Source of the DNA: Dysidea avara | Lineage: Eukaryota > Porifera > Demospongiae > Dictyoceratida > Dysideidae | Assembly: GCF_963678975.1 (NCBI RefSeq) | Contig: NC_089277.1 | Location: 21,731,440 to 21,795,439 of the forward strand | Reading direction: 5' to 3' | DNA: 64,000 bases | Shown here: positions 1-61,313 of the stretch, piece by piece | How positions within the stretch are numbered: position 1 is the stretch's first letter | Layout: the number at the start of each line of letters is the position of its first letter | The notes under the pieces: generated by a model | Databases searched by the model: none | The model's input: only the letters and a program-made list of their open reading frames with translations | Told to the model about the DNA's origin: nothing | Position numbers and translations under genes: made by a program

Positions 1-1760
1 ATAGGCTATATATAGTAATCCAATGTGATACAGGACCAGGTATACATTCATAACATACAGCTCTAGACTGTCACAGTTTACAAGTCTGTGAATTGTTGCT
101 GTATCTAAGTCCGAGAATAATTTACCTTGACTTGAAGAGCAAATAAATGAATGATGTCATCGTACTGTAGGTAAGCTGATGGTTTATAAACATCATAACC
201 AATGCTGTTAAATGTATTAGGATATAGCTAGTTTGCTGAATACACCTTCAATCACTACTGACACTGGAATGAATATAGAGACTTGAGAATGTATGCTCAG
301 TACGTATGCCTTTGGCGTAACCATTGTTTGACAGTTGATTTATCAGTTGCTGTATACATTTGATTATTAATCAACCTTCATTATATCTTGGTATAAAATG
401 TAAGAAAGGCTAGAGAGAAGCCGTAATATGGTTTATGTATTCTTATGTATGCAATTAACAGATTTTTCTTGTTCCCTGTATAGCCACATGTGGCTTCCTG
501 CATAATAACAAACAGCCACAAAACTAATGTTGATAGTGACTCTTATTCTGTAGGATCTGTAGAAAAGTGTCTTTTTTGCCCCCGTATTAGCACCTGGCAC
601 CCCTGGATGATGTATCCTGCATCATTATTTGTTTTTTGGTCATCTCCCACATATAACTAGGCCAGAAATTACCAGTTTAAAATAATGAAACCAATCTATA
701 GTGCTGCAGTCTTTGATGCCTCTAACTATTATAGCTCCTTTTTTAATAGACTGATGGTTAGGGACCCGTCGATTTCGCCGGAAAATTTTTTGGCATAATG
801 GGTGGGTAAAGCAATGAGCAAAATGCTGGCATAATAGGAGCAATTTTTGTGAAGTGGACATAAAAAATGCACAAAAGATCGAGATACTCTAATAGAACAG
901 TCAGACACGCTAAAATATCGACAATGCATAGCTAATTATTACAGGAACAACAAGTGACAATCGAGATACCCTAATAAAACAGTCACACATGTTAAGCAAT
1001 ATTAGCTAGCTTCTTGCTTTACATGTTAGAAGTAATTACCTCGGTAATTACTGATCGAGATACTCTAATAGAACAGTCACTTTAAGGCGAAACTGTAGTT
1101 TTGCACTTAGAAATATTTAATTAACAAAGATCACTGCTGAGCAAAATTTATAATTCTTGAGCAAAATATGGAGCATAATAGGTGAAAAATAAAAGAATTG
1201 CTGGAAAGAAAAATAGGTAGAAAAAAAAGCAAAATAGACTGGTCCCTACTGATGGTCAAGTGGTCCCCATATGATATTTCTGTAGACTCTAATATAGGAC
1301 AGACTAATGATTTTTTACAGTTGGATCAATGACATGTTCAAGTATAGACAAGTAGCTGCTCAAAGGATTTGTTGATTACAGTAATAGCTATTCAGTTTTA
1401 TAGCACTAGCAACTACATACTGTAGCAGTGTGAGTATGGGACTAGTCAATGACAATTAAATCTTTGACAGATTCAGCAGATGTGATGAATCTGCAGCTCC
1501 AACTAATTGTAATTGTGCATGTGTTGCTCTCACTCTGTATGAAGGCAAAAGGTTTCTTTTGTGCTGCAAGGAGACTACAATGTGTGTATGGTATAAATGG
1601 AGTTTTTCTCCAACGCCCTTCTCAAACAGGTTGTCTGGTACAAAGTCATCTTACAACTTTTACTATCATATGCTACAATAACATTGCAAGACTGGTTATA
1701 TCTATACTGTTACAAGGTTGGGCACCCACAATGCATGCGTCTTGCAGATACTGAGTAGCT
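1..1760. other. Gene-free stretch, no supported coding
   Basis: I see no exon-like protein similarity here; the short open frames have no recognisable domains. The only clear structure is three direct copies of a short motif (ACTCTAATAGARCAGTCA type, preceded by GATCGAGAT) near 878, 961 and 1053, spaced about 80-95 bp apart, plus a variant near 1286. An exon of an upstream gene cannot be excluded. Confidence 0.5.
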
Positions 1761-1769
1761 AGTCTCGCG

Positions 1770-1924
1770 TAGCCAGACCACTATTCTTCTTTTGAATTGG
1801 GTTAGGAAGGAAAAGGCTGCTATATTGTGTTCACCAGACATTCATATTTTCTTCCCGACCCAATACAAAAGAAGAAAAAGTTCTTTTCCAATCCAGTACA
1901 TAAAAAGAAAAAGTGGTCTGGCTA
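1770..1924. mobile_element. MITE-like element with TAGCCAGACCAC termini
   Basis: The left end begins TAGCCAGACCAC and the right end reads GTGGTCTGGCTA, its exact reverse complement. The subterminal parts (TTCTTTT and AAAAGAA stretches, then GGAAAAG and CTTTTCC) also pair imperfectly. There is no coding capacity, so this looks like a small non-autonomous inverted-repeat element. It directly abuts the next element. Confidence 0.6.
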
Positions 1925-1930
1925 CACAAC

Positions 1931-2784
1931 ACTAGATGGGTGTATCCATTCACTAGACTGGACTACTGGACTGGATTACTGGACTGGACTACTGGACTCA
2001 ATTTTTTTTGTTTTCTCACCAAACTTGACTAAAATAAGTGTCTTAGAAACTGACACCATTCACCATGAGACATAAAACTTGTACATTGATCACAAAAACT
2101 ACACTAAAACCTTGGTACAGTTCTTTTATCGTAATTTGCCTACTGCTAGCAATATTTCAAGCACTGTTAACACTGCTGTCTTATCTATTTAGTCTTCTTT
2201 TGTAAAATAGCCACCATATATACGTTTTACACTATTATGATATAGAAATTGCCTGTAGTCTGTGCCTTCACTCTAGCTTTGCCGGCTCTTTGGTTTATAA
2301 TGTTTGTAAATAGTGACGAGTGTGCAGTGTTAAAGAATTGCTTCCCAATGCACACACTTTCAAACAGGAAGGTAAGGTTACACATATTTGCAAAAAAATA
2401 CAGTGAGTGTAACAGGGGTTCAAACCAAAGTTATAGACCTCCAAAACTATATAGCACCTTTTCAATTATACTTAATATAACATCTTTAAACAAGCTGTAG
2501 GACCAGGTATCTTATACAGACCTTCAGCACTTGTGCCTAATTTAAAAAAAGATAGACTACAGTTAGCTGCATGTGCCTCTTTTTAATGCAAGATAAGACA
2601 TGGAGAGGAAAGCCCTAGCTTCAAGTGTGGTGTACTACTGTATGAAATCACTTTTAGTGGTTGAAAAAGGTGTTTGTGGTTGAAAAAATGTGTTTGAGCA
2701 ATTTTATGTGAGTCCAGTAGTCCAGTCCAGTACCAGTAATCCAGTCCAGTAGTCCAGTCCAGTGAATGGATACACCCACACTAG
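1931..2784. mobile_element. TIR element with CTGGACTGGA subterminal repeats
   Basis: The left end (ACTAGATGGGTGTATCCATT followed by several ACTGGACT units) is repeated in inverted orientation at the right end (2709-2784, AGTCCAGT units then AATGGATACACCC). The two arms of about 70-75 bp enclose roughly 700 bp without coding signal. The interior includes a fragment near 2489-2545 resembling the SINE-like 3' tail seen at 3940-4045. Confidence 0.6.
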
Positions 2785-3129
2785 ATACTGAGCTCCGGCA
2801 AGTTCCATAACCCTTCATTCCAACACATACTGACAGAATGTAGAGAAAGAGTGCTCAGTAACTAATGGTCACAGACCATGATTGACAGCTGCAATTGCAA
2901 CAAATACAACAGTGTACATCCTTATAGGTGTAGCTACTATCAGTGGACTGAATGATCTATCCAGGCTTTTCCAGCAGGTGAAGAAGGACTGCATGGACTG
3001 GAGTGTTGATCTTGGTGTCTTCTATGATGAGATTTCCCAATGATGTCATAGTGACTTATAAATTCATGATCATCTGCTGATCACGAGGCTTTAGCTAAAT
3101 CAGCATACACATAATAATAGAGGAGTGAG

Positions 3130-3577
3130 TTATGCACCTACGTATCAATGTCATGCCCTTTCCCCTCCCCCATCAGGGAAGTCTAGTGTCAAACTTCCCA
3201 GTAGCTACTGGGACTAATGCACTTGTCAATTTCATGTCCCACCCCCCGAATACAGGGGATTTGACATCGTGGTGTCAAATTCCCCACTACTGGGGCAAAA
3301 TCGGCTGTCAAATCCCCACTATGTCCCCACCCCCATAGTAGGGGATTTGACAACACTTCAAGGATGACTAAGCGCATATTTCATGCATGCGACTAGTAAT
3401 AAACCTGCCCTGTAGCTAGTAAAATTATCGTAGCAAGTGCGATTTTGTTGTTTAGAAATGCAACTACCGAAAATCGGTCAATGAATTGGACAACTGTCAA
3501 TTGCCCCAGGGGTGGGGTAAAGAAACAATGTCAAATCCCCACCTGAGGTGTGGGGCATGAAATTGACAAGTGCATAA
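3130..3577. mobile_element. Inverted-repeat element with GGGGATTTGACA modules
   Basis: The outer ends TATGCAC and GTGCATA are inverted. The body carries many inverted copies of a CCCCAC / GTCAAATCCCC module. A related element lies at about 45879-46190 and a fragment near 4050-4110. Non-coding; a MITE-like family is the simplest reading. Confidence 0.5.
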
Positions 3578-4045: not shown

Positions 4046-4420
4046 GTAAAATCCCCAGTAGGTACGTGTATGGAGACCCCGGGGGTGGGGCTTGACATTC
4101 ATTAGTGCGGGAAACGAACCTGTCTAGAGTAGCTTTACGAACTGATTCCATCGTATTAACCTGTAATAAAGAAATTGCAGACAAAGGTCAGCTTACTACT
4201 CAATCAGTGGGTGGGGTCTGGGCACGAGACTAGAGGTACGTGTGCACGAATAAATTAGAGTCAACTGGAAGTCACGAGATTTTAATGGGGAGTAGCAATT
4301 AACTCCTTTTATCAACTCAAAGGAGACATTTTAACGGTGAACTAATTATTATAGCTAACAATGTTATTATTATGCTCGTGTTTTTTCACCGTTAGGTCAG
4401 TGTTGACCACTACTGAGAGC

Positions 4421-7299: not shown

Positions 7300-7484
7300 T
7301 ACCGTATTTCGCTTTATTTTCATGCAAAAAAATTTCGTGTAAAAACATTTTCGTATGATTTAGGTAATGACTGCTCTATTAGAGTAGTTCGATCTTGTAT
7401 AAAAATTTTCATGCAAGAATTTTTTTGTACAAATTTTGCATACAAAAATTATTTTACAACAAAAAAAAAAAGCAAATTACGGTA
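7300..7484. mobile_element. MITE with TACCGTA termini
   Basis: The left end TACCGTATTTCGCTTTATTT pairs imperfectly with the right end ...AGCAAATTACGGTA. The 185-bp element is A/T-rich and carries one inverted copy of the window-wide ACTCTAATAGARCAGTCA motif at its centre (7368-7390). Confidence 0.55.
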
Positions 7485-7924
7485 CTTAAGCTTGCGTCAA
7501 TCTTCAAACGCACACATCTGTTAATCACCTTTGGTTTCATATATTTAACCTCAGGTTTTGAAGGATACACCTTTTATACGTAGCTTGGCTATTATTGACT
7601 GTATTCCACTAACTAGTAGGCATTAAGCAACTGTTAAAGAGCCAAATACATACAGTATAAATGTATACTACAGCTGGTCCTGCTATAGAATATAAGTATA
7701 ATCATATGCAGATAGAAACTAGCTAATACATGTATTGCACTCTGATATACAGCATTAATTAGCATTAACTTTGTCAAACTGTATAGCATAACATGCAAGC
7801 TAGGTACATAATATACGGGCTCTATGGAATTTATAAACCTGAAGGCCCGAGTACAAGTGAAGAAAGGGTGTTATACTGAGGGTTTATAAATTCCACTGAT
7901 TCCACATTGTTACTGTGTAACTGC

Positions 7925-8274: not shown

Positions 8275-11200
8275 TTATTGATGAGGATGATAAGACAGTG
8301 GGTCACATCCACGGACAAGAATATTGGGGGCATCCTTGTAGAGATGATAAAAGGTTTCCATGACGTCAGGTGGAGGTGAAGCTTCACAAAACTCTACTGC
8401 TTCATCAATATGTTTCTTAACTTCTTTATCAATATCCTACATGACACAGGTGAACGTGGTGACTAGGTGTGCACAAAACACTTTTATTGTTGTCTCAAAT
8501 GTGGACGTTGGTAAGACACTATTGTTTTTATTTACACCCCGTATACTTTTGTTGTGTCAAGAGCTAGACTACTGCAGGCTTGAAACAGCTAATTAGACAA
8601 AGTGTTTATTTAAATCACTTTTAAGTGAACTTGTTAAGAAGAAGGAAGCACATTGTTGTATATAGAGTTCTGTTCAATTACTCAAATTACAATGAAATAC
8701 TCAAAATTAAACAGTCACTTAATCATTGAGGTGTTTGCTCAAACAGATCAATAGTTTAATGGTACATACATAAGTACTAAAACAGCCTGGCTCAGCAGTT
8801 AAATATTGTGCTTTTACATACATATATTACAGACTATAGACAGACAGGAAAGAATCATCTAATGAACTGTATAAATGCACAACTTGTTTTTCAGTGTACG
8901 GTACGTAAGTTATAAATCCTCAAACTCAGAAACAACAAAATGTTAACTACACCAAGAATACATAAATGTGACTGTCTCAGCAAAAACCCCAACTTGTTCG
9001 CACGAGCATGTGTAATAAGAAAAAAATTTTTTTTTAATTCGTAAATTTACGCATGCCACTAAGAAAAAATACGAAAGTTTTTATTGGACCAGTACTCAAA
9101 GAAAATCAATAAAAACTATACACCATCTTATTTGCCTGCTTAGTGAACATTCAAAGCCAAATGGTAACGTTGTGCCAAACGGAAGCTATGGCTGTGAATG
9201 TAAGCACCTGTAGTTTATTTTCAGTAAAGTCACTGTATAAATCAATTATCCTTGCTGTTCCTACTGTCTAGCACTACTATTCCAAAACTACTCGCCACAG
9301 AAGGCTGAAACTTTGGCAATCCATTCCCTGGACACTACAAATATCACTGAGAAAAAAACCAAAAAAACTGTGCAAACAAGTTGGGTTTTTGCTGAGACAG
9401 TCACAAATACACTTTATGCAGAGAAACACAATGATAAACAGAAATACTAGAACACCTATTCACACAAACCTTTAATTCATCTTTAGTGGCAACCTGACCA
9501 TCAATCATTCTATTACTCAATGTTTTGATGGGATCCCGTTCCTTCCTCACTTGCTTCACTTCCTCTGGCTCACGGTAACTACAAATGAAAACCATCCAAT
9601 TCGATAAACCTCTACACACAGTGGCATGTTTGCATAAAACATTGAGCACATAATCTCTACCAGAATTCAGTTGAAGGTTGTTTTTTTTAGAGCAAGTGAC
9701 AGTATACAGAAAATGACTGCAGTGAACACCCATAGGGAACCTGTGGTATGTGTTAAGAAAAAGAACTGTGTGTATTGGACTACTAAGTCAAGTACATACA
9801 ACGATGTTAATGTCATTAAAATCTAAATAAATGAATGAATCTCAATGTTGTTGTACTGGGCAGAAAAAGGAAACAGGGAAATACAGTATATCATAATCCT
9901 ACTTCACAAACAGAATCTCTAGAGTCTGAGAAATTACAGGAGCGTATTCAGGGGGTTTCGGAAACCTCTGAAATGTAAACTTGTGGGCTTGCAGCAAAAC
10001 ATCAGACTATCTTAGTTTGGAAACACAAATAATACAGAAAATCTGAACATGGCAGAGCTGATTACTGAAAGTGTATTAACCCTTAAACATGCATAGGCCA
10101 GAAAACTGTCCCAAATACGCATGCTTTGCACAAAGCATTGTAACTTTTGAATTATCCATCCTATAGCTACACAATTCACGTCATTCTACTTGAGGATTAA
10201 AATGATACCTAGGATTTTATCCTAATGAGGCCAAAACTACAGTGTAGCCATATAAATAACCTTTGGCAAGGAGACATGTAAACCCTTCACATACCTTTAT
10301 AAAATGATCCATAACTCAATGGTGGTTGTTCCTATCAACTTGCAACAAATTCCGTTTGTTTGGTCATAAAATTCCTATTAGGCCATATATGGCTTACGTG
10401 AGTAAACCCACAATCAAAATTAAAGACGTGGCAAGAACTTTGAAATATGGAGACACGACTCGCTGTTGTTCATCGCTTCATAACAAGTAAGCCGCTGTAG
10501 TTACAGTATCTTCTCCAAGTAGCCCAGCGTACAGATTTTTGAACAATGTGTTGTTTTAGGCTACAATAATTAAGTTACCCACTCAACATCGCCATGTGTG
10601 CCCATATTGTGTAAACATGCATTCCCCAAAAGTTCTTTGCGGGTGTAAGGGTTAAGGGAGAACAAAGGTATGTATTGCCTTTTGTATTCACCTTACCTTC
10701 ATATAAAAATTAATCTAATAAATTTTAAAATCTTTATAAAGACCAAGATACTCTAATAGAACAGTCAGTTATATTCTAATAGAGCAGTCACAACTACTCT
10801 AGTGAACATTCATATGGGAGATTCTAATGAAAAACTCCATATACCAATGTACACATTTTAAAGAATGATTTACATGCAGGAGCTAACTTTTGAGCTTTTT
10901 GTTTTATTTGGAGAATTTGTATATGTGACTGTCTCTAGGAAAACCGGTCTTATCACCCATTAAAAAGTATCAAGAAACGTCGGTTTTAAATATTCAGAGT
11001 GTTGTAGCTGGCCAATGGTGGTAGCTACGCATACCAAATTTTGACACGTTTCACAGCAATTTCTTACCTTCCTGATCATCCACTGAAGAAGTAGCCAACA
11101 GCTAAGTTTCCCACCATTTTAGATAGTTTTTAAACCGAGGTTGTCTGTATCAGGCGAGCTCCAGAAGGGTGGGAGGCGGGGGCCCTGGAAGGCGGGCAAG

Positions 11201-24400: not shown

Positions 24401-27400
24401 CTAACTTTCAACTAAGACATAATAAGAATCAAAACGTGGCTAAATCTTTTTACTACTCTATACACATATAGTACATAGCTACTACCAATGCTGCAAAAAA
24501 GATCAAGATACTCTAAAGGACAGTCATACATGTATCACTCAGTATGAACCATGCAAATTTTTTTTTTCATGAATGTTGAAAATTTGTTACATGAAGATAA
24601 AGTGAATTGTGGTATTACGCTGATTGTTGTCTGTAGGTGTGGACACATGGATATTGCTAAGTTGTTGGTGACAGAACTACAAGCTGATGTGAGGGTTAAG
24701 GATCGGGTTGGTTTTACTCCTTTACATGCTGCTGCCAAGAATGGTCATGCCAACATTGTGTCTTTTCTGTTAACACAGCCTGGAATTGACCCAGTAAGTG
24801 ACTAAGTCAGCAAATCCTCATTACAGTGGAATCTCAAGTGTTGTTATCTAACAATTTTGTGAATGCTAATGATGATTGTTCTATTAGAGTATAGCGAGTG
24901 TTCTAGTACTGTGTTTAAAGCCAGGATTTATACACTCATGGGCTCAACTACACTCCAGATACTTCATTGCAAGGTGTAGAACACATGCTTGGGTCTGTTT
25001 ATATATGCCTGGGGGTGCTTGAACACAAAACCATAAACACTGGTACATAATACACTGGGAAAACCTGCTTTCGCCATGTTTCATTGTCATTAGTGAAGAT
25101 TCTGAGCTATTTTACCATAACTTTAACTATTACCATCCCACGCTTGATGTCACAGTGTACTACATGAGACACAATAAAATGAATACCTGAATAGACACCA
25201 GGCTAGCAAGTCCACAATCATTTATAGAAATTAATTCCTTCTGCTTGGCTTCTATGCCATGTGAGGGTTCAAGTAGAGTAGTTGAAAAATGCACAGTATT
25301 AATGCAGAAGTTTCACTCTAACATTTTAAAGCGATTTTACAAAATTATGCTACCATATAATATCATTACCATATTATATTATTAATACTAAGTGGTCTCC
25401 GGGGGATCAGGTCCACTGTACTTGAAGTTTGTAAATATTGTTTGTGTGAATAGTGTGGTATACTCAGTCTAACTTTACACATGCACTTGTTAGTAAAGAA
25501 CTCTTATATTGAAACATTATATGTTTGCTATTTTTCATAGATTGATCGTATTAAACATCTGAGTGTATATCATGTACCACGGTAGTGGTATCATGTACCA
25601 CGGTAGTGGTACATAATAGGGATCAGGCAGAAATTTTTCAAAACACTCTAATAGAACGCACGCCAAAAGCAGCCTTCCGGGCTTTAGATTTTATTTCTAA
25701 AACATTCTAGACCTTTCTTTTGTGTTTACAACACTAGCCAACAAGTATTAAAAGTAAGGGAAATGGTTTTAGGTGTTTTTTAAAATTTTGAAAAATGGTT
25801 AGATTCTCCATCTTCTTCTTTCTTTCTTCTTTCTTTCTTGTTTCGCGCGCCTACAGCTCGTAGGAAGTAGATATCAGCCCTAAAAACGTATGGCGTATTT
25901 AAAAAACATTCGTACCCAGGTCTGTGTGGTATTAAAATCTTCCCTCTCTAATGCGATTGCGAGATATAGAGCAAGAATCACTCTTCGAGACGCCATTCGA
26001 TCGAGAAGCCATACAGATGATAATATAGAATTGTTTAAAATTCCATTGCTTTAGCTCACAGGACTAAAATGCATCAAGTTGTATCACACTAAACATTAAA
26101 CATAACTATTGTTCACTGAAACTCGGGTTTTAGACTTCCTTCATTACGAGACAGTGAAGGGGGTGTGGCCCGCACCTCGTCACTTAAACTATTACTGTAC
26201 GCCTTTCGTGTATACTTTCTATTATATTCTTCAGCTGTTTACCAGCTAAGAGTCGACATAACAAGGCTTGTAAGCTATTGGAACACACTGGTAAATTTCG
26301 AATTAAAAAGGGGTGTGTCCCTTCCGTACGCGATTGAAAAATAAAAAGCGGGATACTCCGTATACTCAGCACTTTAATTGGAGTCGACCACGTTTTGTCA
26401 AGCGTGTGTTTTACTCGTGTTGAGATTTCGCACCGCTTCGTTGCAGTAAACGGTCACACTAGTGGATTTATCTACTCGTCAAAGGAAAGTGGTATTGTTT
26501 ACTGTATTGTTAACTGTATTGTTAACTAATTGTTTATTAAACTTATTTATGTAATTGTTTATTGCCAGTTGATATTACAATGGGTTTCTTTATTAAACAA
26601 TCATGTACTGTTGAACGTATATTTAAGAAGTAGTCCATGTGCATGGACATGAAAAAAATCATGAAACTAGTGGGGCAAAAAAATTATTAATTTTCAACAA
26701 GTAGAATAGGGATCAAAGATTTGATTTAGAAAAAAACTGTGTAAACAAGAAGTAATAGGGATGATAATCCACAAAATTCTATGCATCATCAGTTCAAAGC
26801 AAGTTATTTGAATAGTGTACACTCAATTTGCGATTCCTATTTCAACTTGTGGTTAAATTTTGTTAAAATGTTGAAATAGGAATCGCAAATTGAGTGTACA
26901 CTATTCAAATAACTTGCTTTGAACTGATGATGCATAGAATTTTGTGGATTATCATCCCTATTACTTCTTGTTTACACAGTTTTTTTCTAAATCAAATCTT
27001 TGATCCCTATTCTACTTGTTGAAAATTAATAATTTTTTTGCCCCACTAGTATATACTACATACATATGTTAAACTATTGTTTTCTACATAGAATGTTACA
27101 GACAGGGAAGATAAAACTCCACTACAACTATGCTTGGATAATAAGCAAAATGATTGGGAGTCAGTTGTGGATATGCTTAAGGATGCACACCCAATACCAT
27201 CTCAGTCCGAATCAGCACCTTCAAAGGTTGAAATTTTTGTATAAGTCTGTTCGTGTTCACCTGAGCTCTTTTGAAGTCAGTCATGTCAAAAACGTGAACT
27301 CTATGATGTGTAGTAGTAACCGTTTTTGTATATTTTAATATGTCAATGCACTTTCCCATTTGATTCTAAAAGGTGCAGGAAAGCTTTCAAGCATAATATT

Positions 27401-46200: not shown

Positions 46201-49200
46201 GAAACCCCTAGAGTGGTGCTTTAAGTGTTATATAATATGGACAGTAAGCAAGAGAACATTAGTCATCTACATTGTGTATCTGAGCATGTATATACATGCG
46301 CTGTAGCTCAAACTCTTTCATCTGCTCTTCCTCATTTTAGTGCCCATAGAAAATTGTTAGAAACATTTGAATAGTTACCACTTTTGAGGTTATGTATTGT
46401 GCTGAACACTGCCACTGAACAGTGGGACTGACTTCGAATACTATCCTGAGGCAAAGAAAACATTTCACCCTCATTTTCTATAATAAATTAGAGTAACTGT
46501 CGTAAGTCTCTTTACTCATTATGCCAACTTACTTTGCCTTGATGTAGTAGAATTTGTGCTAGAGGTTATGCAACAATGGAATACTCTCTGAATTAGTATT
46601 AGGTGTACACGAGATCAAGATACTTGAATAGAGAGCAGTCACCTAACTACTCTAACAGAACATTCATAATAATAGTTGGTTGTGCTATGTACTCTATCTA
46701 ATTTGTCTGCATTAGACCATGTGTCTATATTCAAGTACAGAGGTCTATGACCTTCATTTGTGACAGGATCTGTGAAAACTTTGACATTGATGTAGTTTCA
46801 ATTTTTTTCATTGTTAAATAATTGTAATCTACATAGCCAAATGTATGCTCTGGTGAAGTTTCAGCCTCAACCCTACTAAAATCATTTCAATGTAATGTAA
46901 ACAAATGCCCACAAATACTCACGTATTTGTTGGTACACTGCAACGAAACAAAGATTTGCGAACTCCTCTTAATTAGGTGACTAAGATGATGTTCAAGTTA
47001 CCATCAGATGGTTTCTTCACAAAGAAAAATGCACTTAAAAATTTACAGAATTTTTTAAGATACGCATTTGGCAAGCATGTATTTTTGTACCCATTGTGAT
47101 CAGTTGTTTATACTGTAAAATTTAGACTTGCAGATAATATAAATGCTGCACATGGATTGGAAACGAGTCCGTAAATTGCATGATATGGTGAAACACTCTC
47201 TGTAACAAAATTTACGGAAACCAAGGGAATGGCTACTAAGGGGAGAACCAGTATATCAATTTGAGGATGGTGTTAGTGAAGCTAGTACTGAGGATGAAGA
47301 ATGCACTTACGAAGCAAATCCGGTCAACAGCTGAGTTGCACATAATTATAGTGAGAACAAGTCTATTTAGTGTATTTAAGTATTACCTGAATCGTACAGT
47401 ACGATAGTACTGTATAGTAGGGACATCAAAGGTGTGGGGGCGATCCGTGATATAATATAACCCAAAAACCTGCCGCGATTTTTCCTCACAACAACATGAC
47501 AGTATTGGTTGGGTAAAACCAAGCCCAAAAGTGTCTTCAGATCGACCCGAAACGTTTCCGTCAAGTTGCTACAGAATTTTTAAAAAATTTTAGTCAATGG
47601 AATTTTCTACTGCCTGCCTGCCTGCCCGCCCGCCCGCCTGCCTGCCTGCCTGACGTCTTCAGTCAAGTGTAGCGGAAAACTGGTTACAGCTACGGCCCTA
47701 ATTCTTTCGCAGAAACTTTTCTAGATCGCTTAAGAAAAAACCTTTGGTATATTGATAAACATACAATGCTTACGCTATTGTCGTAACCCTTTATCCTTCT
47801 TTACCATGGCCATCAGTCAAGGTTCTACCGCTGAGTGTTAATAGACTACAGTATGGCTTCCATCTACCAATGTATATTGCATCAAACTATTCGAATATAC
47901 GTGGTCGCCAGGTGTACCAAACTACACACGTACGTGACTTGCTGTTGATATCGATCAGTGAGAGCAACTCGCGGCGAACTATTTAGCAATGTGTAAGTCA
48001 GTTAATATAGTTTATTTAGTAACACTGTTAAACCGAGTCTGGTCATCCAGGTCCCGCTTTACAGATTACTCGGGTCTGACCCCACTTGCTAAACTAAATG
48101 TGGATGTGTTACTACACGTCATAGCGTAGCCCTGCTTCTTTTGTGAGCCACGCCCACTTACGTAAATTACTCTCTGTGGACACATGGTAGCCACGCCCAT
48201 TCATCAGTCTGTAGGTATACACGAATTCATGTCCATTATTTCCTGCAGGCTTATGTAGAGCCACGCCCACTGATCAGTTGTTATTGTATGAGTCATAATC
48301 TAGTATAATAGTGCTGTGATTAACTCTTAACCCTTAAACGCGAGAAATGCGTGTTTACCAAAATTGGTTTTATATTGAAAGTGGTGAGAGTTTGCTAAAC
48401 TGAATTAGCCTAACATCTTATATAAACAGAAAGTTTATTCAATAGGCTATCAGGGGAAGTTTAAATAACCACTGTAACAATAGGCGCTCACTTGTTATGA
48501 AGCGATGAAGAACAGCGTCTTGACTTTTCGCGATTTCGTATTCCTTCCAGTGGCAGCCATATTTGTAATTGGCTGAGTCACGTGACCCATATATGGCCTG
48601 AGGCATAATTGAATGGCGAATTGATCAGCGTTTATTGCAGAACAATAGAATGAACTGGGAAGGAGATACGAGTCTTTTTCCAAAGGTATGTAAACAGTTT
48701 TACGTGTTCATTTCGTAAAAAGTTAGTTTCATGGCGAGTTTTGGCCCTGTGTTTCAGTGTAGGGTAAAACCCTACATATCATTTCATTTGCTATTACATC
48801 ACGAATTAAATGATGGCAGTTGCGTAGCCATAGGGACAATGGTTCGGAAGTTACAGCGCTTTGTTTACTGCCATGCGTGAGGGCCACTTATAATGGCCTT
48901 TGCGCGTTTAAGGGTTAAAGTATTGCGACAGGTTTTGTGAAAAGCAGGCTATTTTGTGGTCATGAGGTTGCAAAAAAACTTCACAAACAATATAAGAAAA
49001 AATTAGGAATTTTAAATTAGAGTAGGGACAGTGTATAGTGTTGCAATAAAAAGTACTGAAACAAGCTGGATCGAAGTAGTACGTAATGTCCAAATACTGT
49101 AGAATTGAATATCCCTACTGTGCATTGAGTGTAGCACAGTAGAGATGTTCACTTCTTATTATTTTACAGTATTTGGACATTACGTACTATTCCAATCCAG

Positions 49201-52200
49201 CTTGTTTCAGTACTTTTTATTGCAGCACTATACACTTTCCCTACTCTAATTTAAAAGTCCTAATTTTTTCTTATACTTGTAGTAATTTGGATTCTAATGA
49301 AGCAGTCAAGCAATATTAAATACTCTAGTATAACAATTCTTAGGAAAAAAAATGCTTCAAAATTCCTATGTGTGCCTGTTAAAGAGACACATGCATATGT
49401 TAGTTATTCTGGATTTTAGCAGAATCAATCAATCAGTGAATCTTATTGATACAGTAGGACCTCCATTATCCGAACACCTGTGTGCCAGCTGAATCACAAA
49501 AGTGTTCAGATAAGTGAATTTGTTTGGATAAATGAATATATACAGAACTCTGTTGAACTACTCTAATAGAATATACACCTGTGCAAAATACTTTAATAGA
49601 ACATATAACTGTTGACAAAATACCTTAATAGAACAGTCACCACTACTGTTCGGATAATCGAGGGTTTGGATAATCGAAGTTCGGATAATCAAGATCCTAC
49701 TGTATAGTGTTTGCCCTTAAAGGGGCTATGCGCTCAGTTTGTTGACATCGTGAAGCTGTTTAAGTTTATCATAACAAAACACGTCATTATATACAAACAC
49801 GTGTGCTGTAAAATGGTATGATTTGTTTTTGCTGGCCTTGTACAACGATTGTAAGCTAGGTGAGCAAGCTTAGAATGTTTCCTGAGTTGCCTGACATCAT
49901 GACAAAGATGCTACATTGTAGTAGAAGGCGTGATAATTCTGCCCGAGATGAGCCCTTCATTTTATCGCAATAACATCGCAAAACACAAGTTGTTGTGTAG
50001 TGTTAATTAGTCCTCAGCTGCTTGTTTATTCCTTTGCAGCAGTACAATGTTAATCGTTGGTGATTTTTGACATTGCTCTCCCATGCAGCTATTGGCTTGA
50101 TGTCAGCATGTTACGTACTAAAATGAAATATTATGTATTGTTCATGATTTCACTAGCAGTAAAATATTAAACAGCTTCATCAAGTGCATAGCCCCTTTAA
50201 TGTGAGTATCAGTGTTAATTTACAGTTTGTCTGAGGTATTAGTAATGTTGCAGTATAGGAGAAAACTTTGACCAAGAGTTCATAATATTTGTATGGGGAA
50301 GAGTGTCTACTTGCCAATATGGCCTGTACAAACACACTGCTACAAGTTCACTTTTAATCATACTGTATGTACACCTCTAGCCTGATTCTACTGATGGCAA
50401 AGAACTGTTGATAGGTGATGACTGGCATTGAAAAGGTCAAGCCTTTCTTCTAAGACAATCCTGAGGTGTTACTTGCAGCAGTGTGTTTGCTGAATGTACT
50501 CCAGTTAGATGCTTTCCCCCATACAAATATTATGAACTCTTGCTTTGACATTGCCACAAATACTCTCTATATGCATAGAGCGTAGCATGTGGTCGGATCT
50601 GGGAAAAATGGTGTTATAACCTTTCCAAATTCCCAAGTTTGACTAATCATAACTCCTAACTTTATCACCTTCATATTACACCAAGCAAGAGTGGCTTGTT
50701 AGGAGTAAAATGTGACCAAATTCCAGGGTAGTGATATACATATTCAAGTTATTGGTTGCAAAACACATGCAATTGGAAATGCTATAAGACCTCTTTTATC
50801 ATACAGTATAATATTAAGAATCATGAAGAACTGGGCTTTTCCAGCCAAAAATATCACCCTAAAACCAGCTTCAATTTCCCTTCATGACAGCTGGGCAGGT
50901 ACAGCCAAGCCAAAAAATGGCCCCTTCCAAAACAATTTTTTTTTAAATTTTTCTATTTAACGGATTTTTATGCTGACTGACTAACTAACTAACTGATGCC
51001 TCTAACCAAACATAACTTGACAATGGATTAGGCTACGGGCTTGATTTCTTCATTGTTCAACATTGCTTCTTCCCGAGATATGCCTTTTCGTGAATCACAG
51101 TATGTACAATACACGCATCATTGACTTGCCTTTGTCCTCCTTTGTGTTCCAATTCTTTTTGCTGACAATGCAAGGTGTCAATTTGTGATAGCACGATGCG
51201 GCTTCCCTGTGGCTGTGTTGGCTAATCACCCATATTTTCCATAGTGACTGGATTGATTGCAGAGACACGCTTCTCGTGCTATTCTTCATTTGTAGCCCTG
51301 TGTGATGGGTGGAGCATAGTTGAAAACAAAGCATAATGGCCACCTCCCTTTCTGTAATGTAATTGATTGTTGGGGCTTGCGTTACTGAAGCAAAATTACT
51401 TTTATGACATTCCTTGCACTTAATGCAATATGCACTGGTTCATTTGTTATAATCATGTTATTATCAACAAGTAGAAGGTAAAATTAGAAATTTTAAGTTG
51501 GATTAGGGATCAAAGAAGAAAAAGTAGTGAAACAAAGGAACAAGGAAAGTTGCCTATAACTGCAGATATACTAGTGGACATTGATTTTAATCCTTAGAAT
51601 TCAACTTAAAATTCCTTCTACTTGTATGTGTTTACTAAGATACAATGTATACATATACATGTGTGTGTATGGCAGTTCTTATAGTAATGGATTTGTTGAG
51701 CAGTTCATGGGAACATACTGAGCTAAGTCTCACTATAGCTAGTCACCAAAACTACCCAATATATATATATATATACATACCAAATAATACTGAATCTGTA
51801 TATTGCAGCCCGTTTCACATTCAAGAAATATAACAGAAACAAACAAACAAAAAAAAAATTTGTACATTGTGTGATTACTCAGTCAGTTTCAGTTATAAAA
51901 CTGTCCACGTTTATAGTTAGTACATGTTATATATGGCGTTCTATATCTTATCATTGTAGAGGGAAGTGGTCATTCATTCCAGATGTGATGAAAAGAATAT
52001 ATCGTCCAAAACCCAAACAGAGACTGAAATCAGCCAACTCATCAAAATGGTTTAGATCTACCTCTCCACCAGTACCACAGCACCAGTCACCAAAGAGCAG
52101 GAAGAAATCAGATGTTACTGCCACACCTCCACAATCATCATCGCCAAATCATTCAATGGTATATTATTCATACTTGTTAAGTGAGGATTGAATGCAGATG

Positions 52201-52954: not shown

Positions 52955-53191
52955 GCATAATGTCACACCATCATGACAGGTGAAATAATTCAACGAAATT
53001 TACAATACCCTGAAATACCTTTAACTGGTTTTAAGTACTGGACAATGATTTTAATCATTATAATCATTGTTCCTTAATCATCATTGATTATAATCATTGT
53101 TACCTTGTAGTGCCTATTTAGTTGTACAAACTGAGTTGTTAATTGTGATATTGTGATTAATTTCCTACAAGATTTATAGTCATGACATGTA

Positions 53192-53436
53192 CAGTGGAAC
53201 CTCATATATCTGGACCCCACTTATCCGGATTCTCGGTTAACTAAACTACGGAAATTACTGCTCTATAAGAGTAATGACTGTTCTATTAGGGTAGTTATTA
53301 GTTAATACTGAAATTTTAAAGATGTTCTTTATGCTATATATTTAAGGTTATTTACACACAGTTTCAAAGATACAGACGTTTCATAATTATGGACCACCCC
53401 TGGTCCCAAGAGGCTCAGATAACTGAGGTTCCACTG
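53192..53436. mobile_element. TA-flanked CAGTGGAACC MITE downstream of kinase 1
   Basis: CAGTGGAACCTCATATATCT pairs with AGATAACTGAGGTTCCACTG, with TA on both sides. It contains inverted copies of the TCTAATAGA motif at 53265-53296. Confidence 0.8.
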
Positions 53437-53689
53437 TAGCACTATACAGTATAACAATTGTTAGATGACCAAATATTGTCAGGTATTTGTCTTAATATGC
53501 ACAAACATTATCACACTTTAACTTCAATTTTTTGTGTCATGACTAGATATACAGTGAGTATTAAAGGTTGTATTTTTAAGACTACCCATAAGGATCCATA
53601 TGTATGCCAGGGACTATACAATAAGGCACAGTTCAAATTGATGGTATATATGGAGGTGTGTGAAGTAGCTATACCTAGAAATAGATAAT

Positions 53690-54011
53690 ATCTAATCCAA
53701 AACAGCCAAGCTGTAAAAAAAGTGTGCGGCCCTCAGAAAGGCTATGGTGAAAAAAGATGTGAAATCCAAGGTGGCGGCCAAGAAATGGCTGTGATGGTAG
53801 GTTAGTGGTAAAAATTTTAATAATGACAATTCAGGTGAATTTTTGTGCCGCTTCACAAAAATTCACCTGAATTGTCGTTATTAAAATTTTTACCACTAAC
53901 CTACCATCACAGCCATTTCTTGGCCGCCACCTTGGATTTCACATCTTTTTTCACCATAGCCTTTCTGAGGGCCGCACACTTTTTTTACAGCTTGGCTGTT
54001 TTGGATTAGAT
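53690..54011. mobile_element. Hairpin MITE: 158-bp arms, 6-nt loop
   Basis: 53690-53847 and 53854-54011 are reverse complements with one mismatch seen by eye (in the ATGACAAT / ATTGTCGT region), around the loop CCGCTT. The ends are ATCTAATCCAAAACAGCC and its inverse. There is no coding capacity. It lies about 1.1 kb 3' of kinase 1. Confidence 0.92.
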
Positions 54012-54178
54012 TTCATTTCTTTTTGTATTTGTATACCCCAAAGCCGGCCTATGGCCAGCTTTGGGACTTTTTTAACCTATGTTTTTTTCTTTACTACAGG
54101 AAGAAGAAAAGATGAAGTAGATGTACTTTAAATATTTTATCAGTAAATGTACAAATTATATATACTGTATAATACATA

Positions 54179-54408
54179 TGTGACCGGATTTGCGAAAAGG
54201 GGTCCAATTTGCCAACTTTGACAATTGATAACTTCAGATTGGAAAGAGCTATTGCCTTGATATTTGGGCAGTGGTGAGCACCACTATAGCTGAATACATG
54301 GTGAAATGTTCAGGTTAATAATTATGTTACTTGAACACTGAGTTATGGTCTCCAACATTTACGGAATTGGATGTGTGTGGAAGACCCCTTTTCGCAAATC
54401 CGGTCACA
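54179..54408. mobile_element. TGTGACC-type MITE with perfect terminal repeats
   Basis: TGTGACCGGATTTGCGAAAA pairs exactly with TTTTCGCAAATCCGGTCACA, the match extending inward to GGGGT and outward through the flanking ATA. TA is present on both sides. It is the least decayed member of the TGTGAC family here and abuts the minisatellite. Confidence 0.92.
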
Positions 54409-54429
54409 TATATTGATTACAGAAATCTC

Positions 54430-57400
54430 CATGGTGGTTTCTTTGTAACTGAACACTCTACAAGGTGACTTCTTCTAATTGCTCTCTCTACAGGGTGAAT
54501 TGTTTGTAGCTGAACGATCTACAAGGTAACTTCTTCTAGCTGATCTCTCTACAGGTGATGTGTTTGTAGCTGAATTTTGTATAGGTGATTTGTTTGCAGC
54601 TGAGCTCTTTACAGAATGGTTTCTTTGTAGCTGAACTCTCTAAAAGGTAACTTCTTCTAACTGATCTTTCTACAGGGCAATTTGTTTCTGGCAGAATTTT
54701 CTACAGGGTGATTTCTTTGCAGCTGAACTCTCTACATGGTGGTTTCTTTGTAGCTGAACTCTCTACAAGGTAATTTCTTCTAGCTGATCTCTCTACAGGG
54801 AGATTTGTTTGTAGCTGAACTATCTACAAGGTAACTTCTTATAGCTGATCTCTACAGGGTGATTTGTTCGTAGTTGAATTCTGTACAGGTGATTTGTTTG
54901 CAGCTGAGCTCTTTACAAAATGGTTTCTTTGTAGCTGAACTTTCTCCAAGGTAAGTTCTTCTAACTGATCTTTCTACAGGGTGATTTGTTTGTAGCTGAA
55001 CTATCTACAAGGTAATTTCTTCTAGCTGATCTCTCTACAGGGCGATTTGTTTGTAGCTGAATTCTGTACAAGTGATTTGTTTGCAGCTGAGCTCTTTACA
55101 GAATAGTTTCTTTGTAGCTGAACTCTCTACAGGGTGATTTGTTTGTAGCTGAAATCCCTACAAGGTAACTTCTTCTAGCTGATCTCTCTACAGGGTGATT
55201 TGTTTGTAGCTGAACTCTCTACAGGTGATTTGTTTGTAGCTGAACTCTACAAGGTGATACTTCTAGGTGATTTCTCTACAGGATTCCTTGTTTCTAACTG
55301 AACTCTCAACAGGGTGATCTGTTCATAGCTGAACTTTCTACTGGGTGATTTGTTTGCAGCTGAACTCTCTAAATGGTGGTTTCTTTGTAGCTGAACTCTC
55401 TACAATGTGACTTCTTCTAGCTGAACTCTCTACAAGGTGACTTGTTTCTAGCTGATCTCTCTACAGGGTGACTTGTTTCTAGCTGAACTCTCTACAGGTG
55501 ATTTGTTTGTAGCTGAACTCTCTACATGGTGGTTTCGTTGTAGCTGAACTCTCTACAAGGTAACTTCTTCTAGCTGATCTTTTTCACTGCATATTTGTTT
55601 GTAGCTGAGTTCTCTACAGGGTGATTTGTTTGCAGCTGAACTCTCTACATGGGAGTTTCATTGTAGCTGAACTCTCTACAATGTGACTTCTTCTAGCTGA
55701 ACTCTCTACGGGTGACTTGTTTCTAGCTGAACTCTCTACAGGTGATTTGTTTGCAGCTGAACTCTCTACATGGTGGTTTCTTTGTAGCTGAACTCTCTAC
55801 AAGGTAACTTCTTCTAGCCGATCTTTCTACAAGGTGATTGAGTTTTTTGCAGCTGAACTCTTTACATGGTGGTTGCTTTGTAGCTGAACTCTCTAAAAGG
55901 TGACTTCTTCTAGCTGAACTCTCTACAGGATGATTTGTTTGCAGCTGGATTCTCTACGTGGTAGTTTCTTTGTAGCTGAACTCTCTACAATGTGACTTCT
56001 TCTAGCTGAACTCTCTACAGGGTGACTTGTTTCTAGCTGATCTCTCTACAGGGTGACTTGTTTCTAGCTGAATTCTCTACAGGTGATTTGTTTGCAGCTG
56101 AACTCTCTACATGGTGGTTTCTTTGTAGCTGAACTCTCTACAAGGTAACTTCTTCTAGCTGATCTTTCTACAGGGTGATTTGTTTGTAGCTGAATTCTCT
56201 ACAGGGTGATTTATTTGCAGCTTAACTCTCTACAAGGTGACTTCTTCTAGCTGAACTCTCTACAGAGTGATTGATTTTTTTTGCAGCTGAACTCTCTACA
56301 TGGTGGTTTCTTTGTAACTTAACTCTCTACAGGGTGATTTGTTTGTAGCTGAACTCTCTACAGGGTGATCTGTTCATAGCTGAACTCCCTATAAAGTAAC
56401 TTCTTCTAGCTAATCTTTCTACAGGGCGATTTGTTTGTAGCTGAGTTCTCTACAGGGTGATTTGTTTGCAGCTGAACTCTACATGGTAGCTTCTTTGTAG
56501 CTCTACAATGTTACTTCTTCTAGCTGAACTCTCTACAAGGTGACTTGTTTCTAGCTGATCTCTCTACAGGGTGACTTGTTTCTAGCTGAACTCTCTACAG
56601 GTGATTTGTTTGCAGCTGAACTCTCTACATGATTGTTTCTTTGTAGCTGAACTCTCTACAAGGTAATTTCTTCTAGCTGATCTCTCTACAGGCCGATTTG
56701 TTTGTAGCTGAACTCTCTACATGATGGTTTCTTTGTAGCTGAACTCTCTACAAGGTGATTTCTTCTATAGCTGATCTTTCTACAGGGTGATTTGTTTGTA
56801 GTTAAACTCTCTACACGATAGATTCTTTGTAGCTGAACTCTCTACAAGGTGATTTCTTCTATAGCTGATCTTTCTACAGGGTGATTTGTTTGTACCTGAA
56901 CTATCTACATGATGGTTTCTTTGTAGCTGAACTCTCTACAAGGTAACTTCTTCTAGCTGATCTCTCTACAGGACAATTTGTTTGTACCTGAACTCTCACA
57001 TGATTGTTTCTTTGAAGCTGAACTCTCTACAAGGTGATTTCTTCTAGCTGATCTTTCTACAGGGTGATTTGTTTGTAGCAGAACTCTCTACAAGGAAACT
57101 TCTTCTAGCTGATCTCTCTACAGGGAGATTTGTTTGTAGCTGAACTCTCTATACATGATTTGTTTGCGGCTGAATTCTCTACATGATGGTTTCTTTGTAG
57201 CTGAACTCTCTACAAGGTAACTTCTTCTAGCTGATCTCTTTACAGGGTGAATTGTTTGTAGCAGAACGATCTACAAGGTAACTTCTTCTTACTTATCTCT
57301 CTACAGGGTGATTTGTTTGTAGCTGAACTTTTTACAAGGAAACCTCTTTTAACTGAGCTCTGTACAGGGTGAATTGTTTGTAGCTGAACTATCTACAAGG

Positions 57401-57862
57401 TAACTTCTTCTAGCTGATCTCTCTACAGGATGATTTGTTTGTAGCTGAACTATCTACAAGGTAACTTCTTCTAGCTGATCTCTCTACAGGGTGATTTGTT
57501 TGTAGCTGAATTCTGTATAGGTGATTTGTTTGCAGCTGAGCTCTTTACAGAATGGTTTCTTTGTAGCTGAACTCTCTACAAGGTAACTTCTTCTAGCTGA
57601 TGTATCTACAGGGTCACTAGTTTGTAGCTGAATTCTCTACATGGTGGTTTCTTTGTAACTGAACTATCTACAAGGTGACATCTTCTAGCTGATCTTTCAA
57701 CAGGGTGATTTGTTTGTATTTGAACTCTCTACAAGAAATCTTCTTCTAACTGATGTTTTAACAGGGTGAATTGTTTGTAGCTGAACTCTCTACAGGGTGA
57801 TTTGTTTGTAGCTGATCTCTATACAGGTTACTTATTTCTAACTGATCTCTTTAATTCTGTTC
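54430..57862. repeat. 3.4-kb minisatellite of ~30-31-bp units
   Basis: About 110 head-to-tail units of the form TAGCTGAACTCTCTACA followed by a variable half. Three common unit types are seen: ...AGGTAACTTCTTC, ...GGGTGATTTGTTTG and ...TGGTGGTTTCTTTG. They often occur in runs that look like a three-unit higher-order repeat of about 92 bp. There is no long open frame, and the units differ by point changes and small indels. Confidence 0.95.
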
Positions 57863-57949
57863 AGGGTGACTGCTCTATTAGGATGACTGCTCTATTAGAG
57901 TATCTCGATCTCGCACTTGCTACACCAAGTTGGATTTCGTGTTATAACT

Positions 57950-58745
57950 CCGTGGATTTAAGTCTGATTCTTCTACACCATTGAAGAGCCTTTCTAAGAT
58001 GATAACTCCATCTGTACAGCGATTTTGAAAGCATTACCCCAAGCGGTTTACCTGGTAGGCGTGGCAAGCATAATAATAATAATAATAATAAAATAAAAAT
58101 ATTAAAAATTAGCTAATCTCGATTGCGTAATTGTTACACACTGTTGATTTTTTCGCTGTATCTTCCTGGTTTTTAGCTCGATTTCTTTCAAACCACAAAA
58201 GGTTTGAGGTTCAATAGTTAACCTATTCACCCACCGATTTTCAGCTTCTTCCCATACGCGGTTTACCCTGTAGGCGTGACAACATATTGGTGTTATTTTT
58301 CGTGCATAATCGCTCATAACTCTTTGTCTGTTTATGGTATTCCAGCCAAAGTTGGTACCGAGATGCGCCTTTATACCCCCCTTCTGTGTGCCAAATTTCA
58401 AGGCAATCGGATAACGCGTTCGAGTTTTATAGCAGTTTTTGTAAGTGTGCGACAAGAAAAAGAAAAATAAGAAGAAGAAGAAGAAGAAGAAGAAGAAAAA
58501 AAACGAAGAAACTCAGCCAATTTTTGAAGTCGCGTATCTCGGGAACGCGCGAAGCGATTTCGCTCAAATTTGGAATGTAGAGTGCTGCAGTTGGGGGGCA
58601 TGTCCACAGCAAAAATCGTCTTGTTTCATCAAGGAAGCACAGAGCTACGGAGGTGCGAAAATTGCGTTTTCTTTCTTCCTGTCAATATACTCACGGGTGT
58701 TACGCGCCGGCTTCTTGGGCCGCACGACACACTACCGTGTGTCTT
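57950..58745. repeat. GC-richer repeat with (TAA)n and (GAA)n internal tails
   Basis: Two pieces share CGGTTTAC followed by TAGGCGTG (near 58036 and 58260). The first ends in a TAA run (58071-58091), and the second ends in a GAA run (58470-58495). A third piece from 58500 has a distinctly higher GC content (CGCGTATCTCGGGAACGCGC). Its short open frames include a lysine run from the microsatellite and no domain I recognise. It resembles the 3' part of a retroelement family, but I cannot assign it. Confidence 0.5.
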
Positions 58746-61313
58746 GATACCTTGGAAGTTTACCAATATAATGCAGAATGCATTGAACAGATTTTCTGCA
58801 GTTGATATATATCACCTAATATACAGGAAAAGTATATGAGTGTATGTAGATTCTCATAATTTACTCTAATAGAGCAGTGACATATTTTAAAGGAACTATC
58901 AAATAAAGTACACTTTAGCAATAGTAATAGAAGCTTTACAGTACAGCGCAAATAGAATACAATTACAAAAAATAATTAACTACTTATGCTGCACTGAAGG
59001 CCTGCTAGTAGCCAATAGAGTGGTCATTAAGATTGTTTGATGTCAATTATTATGTGGCAACCTAACCTCCTGCATGTATGTATCTTGCCAATAATTTATA
59101 ATAGCATCCTGAAATTATATACTTATATATATCAACCACTAGTGGTCAGAGCTTATAGCTAGATATCATCATGAATTCATGATCAGAGCTACACAATGTC
59201 ATGTCCAATTAGTAAAGTGACATTTACGTAAAAGTAGCTAGACGTTATACTTATATATTATAATTATTATTGTTATAGCTGCATTGCCATGTCATTAATT
59301 TTTATGCTGAGTTAAGTGTATTGTAAAAAGAGAAGATATGCTGAATTCTCAGGATAGCTATACTGAGAAGGATGGGAAAAAGTGGTTGGATTAGCCCTTG
59401 AGGACTGTGACAGCATATAGTTACTCTCCCCTTTAGGCCATAATTTGACCTCTGTGGTGCAAGTTGATCTGTTTGTTTGCTCCTCAACCCATATCACACT
59501 TAGATAATTTTAAAATACATGTACTATAACCACCTCTAGGTAAGGTTATGGTATAGACATGTACCTTTGTAGCATTTTACCAAAGAAACCACAGGACTTT
59601 TACCAAGCAGAATAAACTGATCGTGAGGAGTAATGTTCTTTACATTGTCTTTCACGTTTAAAGCATATCAAGACAGTTTTAACTAATTTCTATGGAAGAT
59701 GGTGCAAAAATTATAGCTGTCAAGAAATGGCTGCAATAGTGGTGATGTTAGTAATGACTTAATCACAATGTCATTATTTGAACATCACTGAAGCCATTGC
59801 CAAACTTGACTTAATCCTGGTTGTTGTGAAGGCTGATTCCTTTTTTCACTGCTAGGCTAGCTATCTTAGCCACTTCTTGTAAACCATCAATAAATACAAG
59901 AAATTATGCTGGTTGAACACAGGGGAAATTGTGGATCCCAGGCCATGTGACTCTTCAGACACTTTCTTAGGCTATCTAGGTATTATACTAGCAATTGTTT
60001 TGTACTAGCTAATACTTTGCACTTTTTCAACAGTCTGCCACTATAGAACGTTCAGATTGATTATGATTAAAGGGAGACTACATCAGCTCTAGAGTTAATT
60101 CTACATGCATCTCTCAGTATGGACAACATGCACATGCACAATTGTAAAGGGGGTCGCCATCTTTGAAGGATTATTGTATAGTTATTTATTTTAGATTATG
60201 TAGATTTAGTATTAAGTAATCACTTTGCATCTGTGTGTCACGCTTAGAGTTTCTACACACTATATAAATAAATTTAAAAATAGTGGCAAAGAAGAAAAGC
60301 ACACTGTTAAAACTACCTAAAGATGCTATGGTAGCACCTAGAAGTGCTAAAGTTTGCCTATTTCAGTAAAAAAAAATAGCACCTAGATCTGGAGGTGCTA
60401 CCACAGCACTTCATGTGTTGTGTAAGTATAGTTATAGACTATTGCCTGTTTCTGTCAAAATGTTATGTTCTACGGTTTCTATATTAATGAAAAGTAGCTA
60501 CTGAAAATAGACCTCAGCAGGGTGGATACCGTGTAGGTAATAAAACTGACCATATGCATAAAGATAACTATAAGGTAAAGGCCACTCCAAATAAATTCTC
60601 TGTTTCCCGTCCTAGTTTCAGGTATATTTGCATTAGGGCGGGGGGGTCTATTTCTTATAAGATTGGCTAGCTCTTCAAGCCATTATTTGCCTGACACAGC
60701 CAAAAAGGCTGCATAAAAGCATGCTTAAGCTTGTTCTTTCCTCTGTAAGTTGCAAAAATAGCTCAAACGGGAAGTTTGTGCTGACTTCGTAGCACTGCTG
60801 ACACGTGAGCTGACACTGTTTCAAGAGCCTATTAGTATGCAAGAATAACCCGAAAATAATGAACGAATACGGAATAATAGAATATTTAGTAACCAGATGT
60901 GGGCGGTGGACGGGAAACAGAGAATTTATTTGGAGTGGCGTAAGGTTAGCCTGCTGAATCAAAATTAAAAAAATCAAAGCCCTTTTTTAAGAGTGATAAC
61001 ATGTTTTAGCCACTTTGAAATAATAGCTAGCTCGACATACTGCGCGCTGCAACCCAGGCCAGATAATACTTTGATGCACTCTAGCGACTTGTACCTAGTA
61101 GGCACTGAGCATATATATGCAACAATTATACCTCCCTGCATTGACCTTATACGTATGGACTCACGTGCACACACAAAAAGGCAGACGCCCGGCTTTCTTA
61201 TAAGGATGCTTCAAGCCAGACCGGCCTTCTCTCTAGCTGTACACAATTTAATACATTCCATCTGCGCAAGTGTACTGACCAGACTTATCTTTAGTACGTC
61301 TTTGTAGCTATTA
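58746..61313. other. Intergenic region before kinase 2
   Basis: No supported gene. It contains an imperfect inverted repeat near 60330-60410 (GGTAGCACCTA paired with its inverse), one ACTCTAATAGAGCAGTGA motif at 58863-58880 and the MITE at 60581-60939. The ~300 bp before 61314 presumably hold the promoter of kinase 2. Confidence 0.55.
60581..60939. mobile_element. GGCCACTCC-type MITE upstream of kinase 2
   Basis: GCCACTCCAAATAAATTCTC followed by TGTTTCCCGTCC pairs exactly with GGACGGGAAACA followed by GAGAATTTATTTGGAGTGGC. At 359 bp it is the intact reference for the disrupted copy at 37432-40482. Confidence 0.88.

Follow-up and report, generated by a model that had tools for sequence, protein, structure and literature searches.

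A stretch of 64,000 nucleotides from the sponge Dysidea avara (hereafter the window; C6:21731440-21795439 of a 550.8-Mb assembly) holds about twenty copies of one 18-bp sequence, ACTCTAATAGARCAGTCA, which raises the question of what spreads so long a motif through a genome. The assembly consists of 108 contigs, 15 of them 14 to 65 Mb long, with an N50 near 40 Mb by hand calculation. We found that the motif, which is directional, is internal to non-autonomous DNA elements of several unrelated types. Our tentative reading of the sequence, to which we give somewhat less than an even chance, is that it belongs to a cassette of 22-27 bp kept by several DNA-transposon lineages, probably as a putative binding site for one factor.

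The original prediction held that about twenty copies lie on both strands of the window, beyond what chance would give. This was borne out, as allowing up to three substitutions we found 20 matches on the two strands, compared with a mean of 0.18 and a largest count of 2 in 100 dinucleotide shuffles. Fifteen of the 20 predicted positions were reproduced within a few bases at this threshold and five were weaker: by our own count 25644 and 29986 differ at 4 positions, and 24228, 24507 and 46620 need an indel. The scan added copies at 28306, 31817, 46649 and 49291, and resolved the predicted copy at 53265 into two, at 53255 and 53275. Genome-wide, at up to two mismatches, there are 143,886 copies (71,619 forward and 72,267 reverse), about one per 3.8 kb, versus 53 (32 and 21) for the reversed pattern. 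The exact 27-mer GATCRAKATACTCTAATAGARCAGTCA occurs 25,326 times (12,729 and 12,597) versus 0 and 0 when reversed, and close direct pairs of the motif number 13,496 versus 0. We also drew 19 random 10-kb stretches which together with the window make up a random sample of 254 kb. This sample contains 64 copies at up to three mismatches, and a weight matrix gave 64 matches scoring at least 14 bits, compared with none in the reversed sequence. The window shuffles and the reversed-pattern genome count thus rule out chance as the origin of the recurrence.

A known structured RNA was also rejected as the source, since within the window only a transfer RNA, at 19986-20069, reached the Rfam gathering score. 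The exact 20-mer had 0 matches in both the prokaryote and the viral contig collections, which may omit near records. No description of the motif was found in the open-access literature, where its letters matched only papers on unrelated subjects; most subscription journals fall outside that search.

The limits of the motif were read from an information profile of 147 copies, some from overlapping loci and 30 of the loci picked for an exact motif (loci sampled from the assembly are labelled L0xx). Information is near background directly 3′ of the last A, and on the 5′ side it fades gradually through AAGATCGAKAT. When the motif was masked and the flanks were clustered, 84 clusters fell into 31 groups: one of 44 (chained), one of 8, three of 2 and 26 single, where the group of 44 is a mix of several element types and the single groups may merely have no relatives in a small sample. 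Taking one row per flank group, the best copy and hence one that favors intact motifs, the core remained at 18 bp, together with A...T at -4 to -1, and nothing was kept 3′. The cassette is strictly kept over the 18 bp of the motif, extends to about 22 bp across families, and is fullest at 27 bp with GATCRAKAT in front. A nearly palindromic core had been proposed; this holds for TCTAWTAGA only, and the strongly kept motif is the longer, directional sequence of 18-22 bp. Finally, 21 of the 88 clusters had no covering match at all. The unrelated flank groups, together with the different ends of the host elements, indicate that the motif is not one ordinary repeat family. Thus the copies neither align to a single such family nor stay at a chance count, the two outcomes that had been named in advance as counting against the prediction.

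Elements that carry the motif

Miniature inverted-repeat transposable elements (MITEs) of hAT type carry the motif inside TAGGGACC ends and 8-bp target site duplications (TSDs) in L022, L026, L043 and at 759-1248 of the window. L042:7223-7582 likewise has an internal motif and an 8-bp TSD, with CAGGGCCGCCC ends. Assignment to hAT rests on a terminal inverted repeat (TIR) that starts TAGGG or CAGGG and on the 8-bp TSDs AAGTAGTG, CTTGCTAG, GTACTAAT, CTGATGGT and ATTGTGCT; in the hAT MITE of L050 the TTTAATAC duplication is visible at both ends. Between the different hAT families, similarity is found mainly in the terminal 80-120 bp or so, and the interiors differ except for the motif, which lies at 0.28 to 0.74 of element length. 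A scan for TIRs with TSDs around the 88 clusters gave 10 rows and random positions gave 4 of 88; among the 10, L031 is the inverted motif pair itself, L021 and L022 overlap and are one element, and L001 is a weak A+T-rich pair.

Other carriers have unrelated ends. Two MITEs of the window, at 31592-31801 and 53190-53438, have a CAGTRGAACCTC-type TIR at both ends and a TA target site, and we take them to be pogo/Tigger-like. Another group ends in CAGKGGCGGATCCAG (the CAG group) and has exact 5-bp TSDs in five of seven paired ends (L017:1417-1759, L017:2397-2687, L019:1389-2518, L029:1417-1758 and L044:1212-2690), with none visible in L008 and L042:3098-4060. These duplications are shorter than the usual 8 bp of hAT, and an assignment of the group to hAT is not supported.

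A further carrier, family A, was found at 53682-58748 of the window and at L043:2002-6950, which match at 97% over 5,079 columns. A 31-bp minisatellite fills its middle with an array of 3.4 kb (54426-57827). Neither a TIR nor a TSD was seen in these two copies, and a hairpin, ACACACGGTAGTGTGT, lies near one end; by looks only, family A would be Helitron/Helentron-like. In L050 (C1:14604786-14607664) a family-A element is inserted in the central motif group of the hAT MITE and has TTAGAGTA on both sides. At L014 a motif copy (684) directly adjoins a family-A end. The proposal that the motif belongs to the conserved interior of several MITE families was thus upheld, since the same bounded motif is present in elements with unrelated ends.

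To avoid selection by the motif, two tests of association started from element ends alone. In the random sample, seven of eight hAT elements with both ends contain the motif (4/5 without the query elements), versus 5.7% of 330-bp windows. Genome-wide there are 2,160 occurrences of the exact 20-bp hAT end, versus 0 when it is reversed. Among the matches listed for C1:1-3.52 Mb, all 6 hAT elements with both exact ends hold an exact motif pair near their center, at 248-269 of 425-446 bp by hand comparison. The chance of six in six is 1.4e-12 for 436-bp elements; one of the six overlaps L021/L022, which had earlier been fetched by the motif.

Is the motif a site for a transposase, as the original prediction had suggested? 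Out of 1,875 candidate hAT dimer domains at least 150 were scored, and dozens lie in frames of at least 600 amino acids. We read one complete autonomous hAT element, L051:935-3309, which has perfect 15-bp TIRs (TAGGCCTGAGCGATT), the 8-bp TSD CAGCCAGT and an open frame of 678 amino acids. It contains no motif, with a best score of 0.6 bits inside the element versus at least 14 for real copies. The ends of L051 had no blastn match to those of the MITEs, and by eye the likeness is limited to about the first dozen bases, so L051 may not be the partner of the MITEs. At least four places share its domain score and frame length, which suggests that L051 may be recently active.

A transposase end site was dropped, as the motif is internal in hAT copies found by their ends and is absent from L051. 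In some superfamilies transposase sites typically consist of repeated short units in direct and inverted order, and the motif units repeat in just this way, which would fit a binding site for one transposase that mobilises all motif-bearing elements. However, the motif is internal, often central, the host ends differ between lineages, and L051 lacks a copy, yet L051 is one of at least 150 loci and its inner ends are unlike those of the MITEs. The internal position, the spread over element types and the fact that one autonomous hAT lacks the motif speak against a transposase end site, and we give the shared-transposase explanation hardly any credence.

What the motif may do

Elements hold one to four motif units, head to tail or inverted. 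Among the 100 direct pairs listed genome-wide the steps were 21 bp (33 pairs), 25 (21), 27 (12), 28 (8), 32 (8), 23 (7), 20 (6) and 17 (2), with three others once each. Close copies can differ in unit number: L040:1041-1460 exceeds L037:8174-8570, a relative of 86% identity, by one 21-bp unit, a difference that looks as expected from tandem duplication. We asked if the motif could instead be a tiny satellite or mobile unit of 27 bp that enters other elements by insertion or templating. In 20 of the 100 pairs the step is 27 or 28 bp, and in 12 of these 20 GATC stands ahead of the second unit, the pattern that repetition of the entire 27-mer would give; overlapping steps of 17 bp also occur. Against this, the sampled loci yielded no insertion matched by a clean empty site, though no systematic search for one was made, and the gain in L040 resembles tandem duplication. 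A mobile unit is, in our view, very improbable.

A number of results weigh against the binding-site reading. The 64 copies of the random sample, an unbiased set, have 0, 1, 2 and 3 mismatches in 23, 16, 16 and 9 cases, and neutral decay at about 7.5% per site, which expects 17.6, 24.3, 15.7 and 6.4, roughly fits. This near-neutral spectrum gives no sign of constraint after insertion and suggests that single copies matter little to the host. A test of divergence in the motif against that in the flanks was equivocal. Over all 40 aligned rows, 384 of 1,422 motif columns differ versus 4,333 of 25,818 flank columns, a total that includes misaligned units and minisatellite rows. Eleven hand-picked rows with cleanly paired units reverse the direction (28/298 motif versus 376/2,192 flank); among the rows left out of these were L034:9710-10000 with L043, which has degenerate units (18/54 versus 46/233), and the very recent pair of window 53682 and L043 (0/35 versus 27/4,902). 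The spacing of units in the 100 pairs is not cleanly helical, the helical phase apparent in a first small sample (21 and 32 bp) having failed there.

The link between motif and element is also loose in places. Among the matches listed for the same 3.52 Mb, at least 3 of 7 lone exact hAT ends have the pair. In the random sample the motif is optional in the pogo-like lineage, lying inside 5 of 12 ends or end pairs, and in the CAG group, lying inside 1 of 4, where a motif within 250 bp of a lone end was counted; in two of the three CAG-group misses, L032 and L040, it lies 480 and 347 bp inward. L017:2397-2687 and the hAT copy L034:9329-9762 hold no motif, and for 26 of 44 clusters no end pattern of the five known ones lies within 900 bp, although a few such clusters belong to elements identified in another way. 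Together the end-based tests indicate that one lineage carries the motif almost constantly and that it is optional in others.

These results bear on a serious rival, in which nesting, gap repair and recombination carried the stretch from one MITE lineage to another and it was then copied with the elements, having no function of its own. The near-neutral spectrum and the optional presence of the motif in pogo-like and CAG-group elements are consistent with such neutral spread. Moreover, interiors do move: L042:7223-7582 and L017:1417-1759 have different outer ends and are alike after the motif (80 columns, 69%), although their inner ends, too, are alike by eye; L042 shares an interior with L019 over 127 columns at 72%; and in L050 family A has inserted into the central motif of a hAT MITE. 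However, neutral transfer should bring variable neighboring sequence, and the lineages share the same 18-22 bp. Several units are held repeatedly, and tolerance is very uneven from position to position. In the 64 copies A11 and A18 are kept in 64 of 64, G10 in 50 and G15 in 49, and position 12 is A or G in a ratio of 33:31 (chi-square for heterogeneity among positions 79, 16 degrees of freedom, inflated by related copies). We regard purely neutral spread as unlikely on the whole. Constant boundaries with changing interiors, multiple units and uneven tolerance point to a binding site that made a difference as the elements multiplied.

Such a site could also have originated with the host, as an enhancer, insulator or loop anchor under host selection that transposons picked up. 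The kept length of the cassette, 18-27 bp, matches the size of sites bound by multi-finger zinc-finger proteins. A parallel is offered by ctenophores, where lineage-specific C2H2 proteins occupy loop anchors and the looping architecture is associated with transposable elements (PMC12221973). In contrast, single copies show no sign of constraint after insertion, the best-placed copies are fixed parts of elements, and a density of about one copy per 3.8 kb is very high for anchors. We consider a host-selected motif improbable.

Binding by a host factor, itself putative, would still be the best mechanism for the cassette. One sequence-specific factor, either host or transposon-encoded, would bind it, and binding would help the carriers multiply, for example by holding their chromatin open or countering silencing in germ-line cells. 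Element lineages would have gained the site by recombination with one another; those with the site would spread more and retain it as the remaining interior was replaced. An inserted copy would then decay like other dead repeat DNA. A bolder version, in which one factor, perhaps a lineage-specific zinc-finger protein, reads a site of 22-27 bp that several unrelated transposon lineages adopted to escape silencing or to open chromatin, would turn the approximately 144,000 copies into a dense potential regulatory grid; this we think a little less likely than neutral spread.

Copies in the window

Host MITEs had been predicted near 7300, 31594, 49452 and 53192, and all four were confirmed, the one at 49452 with a degenerate right end. 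The first, at 7300..7485 (-), has TACCGTA ends (end pair 7300-7484), a relative in L016:903-1078 and a roughly central motif copy without mismatches (7368..7385, -). The pogo/Tigger-like MITE at 31592..31801 (+), with CAGTAGAACCTC ends and a TA target site, has a copy near its right end (31742..31759, +) and another with 2 mismatches just outside it (31817..31834, +). The pogo-like MITE at 49450..49706 (+), whose end is approximate, has three motif units, and copies lie at 49560..49577 (+, 3 mismatches) and 49622..49639 (+, 2 mismatches); a further copy with 3 mismatches is at 49291..49308 (+). The last, also pogo-like, at 53190..53438 (-), has two units, 53255..53272 (-, 2 mismatches) and 53275..53292 (-, 1 mismatch).

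The remaining copies had been described as lying outside any visible element. This is incorrect for the first three, which are the units of the hAT-type MITE at 759..1248 (+; TIR TAGGGACCCGTCGAT / TAGGGACCAGTCTAT, 8-bp TSD CTGATGGT): 886..903, 968..985 and 1062..1079 (all +, with 0, 2 and 0 mismatches), each after (G)ATCGAGAT. It is also incorrect for two copies in the 5-kb, TIR-less family-A element at 53682..58748 (-), in which about 850 bp and then two motif units precede the minisatellite array. These are 57867..57884 (-, 2 mismatches) and 57884..57901 (-, 0 mismatches, with GATCGAGAT), arranged head to tail at a 17-bp step. No host element was seen around 28306..28323 (-, 3 mismatches), 30416..30433 (+, 2 mismatches) and 58863..58880 (+, 1 mismatch). 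The copy at 24873..24890 (-) adjoins a lone pogo-like end at 24822, and that at 46649..46666 (+) lies in a decayed repeat related to L044:1410-1565, with the indel-bearing unit ahead of it at 46620. A tandem group starts at 10750..10767 (+, 0 mismatches), with the next copy 23 bp on at 10773..10790 (+, 1 mismatch).

Two weak dehydrogenase E1 matches, one at and one just under the Pfam cut-off, flank the 10750 group (9401-14249, -), which may therefore be intronic. Elsewhere in the window Pfam matches mark a 907-amino-acid open frame with TRAF zinc fingers and a MATH domain in one stretch, apparently intron-free (4355-7078, +), and protein-kinase exons. Amid kinase-like exons a 63-bp tandem repeat of 3.3 copies lies at 39368-39569.

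Comparison with known systems

In their ends and, where tested, their TSDs, the host elements are like ordinary MITEs of the hAT, pogo/Tigger-like and TACCGTA kinds. Transposons carry binding sites, but usually one kind per family. We know of no case of MITEs of different superfamilies that share an internal motif, and none turned up in text searches of the open-access literature. The CENP-B box and similar 17-18-bp protein sites are spread by repeats, in satellites or one transposon family; the present motif is like the CENP-B box in length and repeat-borne spread and unlike it in sequence. If a single long motif is kept inside unrelated transposon types, elements with different transposases would converge on, or trade, one device that is not a transposase. 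This would make testable the idea that non-autonomous elements are selected for interior sites acting on host chromatin. The motif would also offer a ready bait with which to identify an abundant factor that binds DNA, in an animal that may be early-branching.

By analogy, the nearest described situation known to us would be the VANC-target motif arrays of Arabidopsis VANDAL transposons, in which the motif is read by a transposon-encoded protein (PMC5735166). As in VANDAL elements, short motif arrays lie here in non-coding parts of DNA transposons, and tandem units are gained and lost between related copies. However, the VANDAL motif is, as far as the portion of that paper used here describes it, confined to VANDAL-type elements (PMC5735166), whereas the present motif is found in several unrelated non-autonomous types. 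The ctenophore CTEP1/CTEP2 motif offers a second comparison: like the present motif it is lineage-specific and belongs to a non-bilaterian animal, and its system links transposons with regulatory motifs (PMC12221973). That motif is GC-rich and has identified C2H2 binders (PMC12221973), whereas the one described here is AT-rich and its binder is putative.

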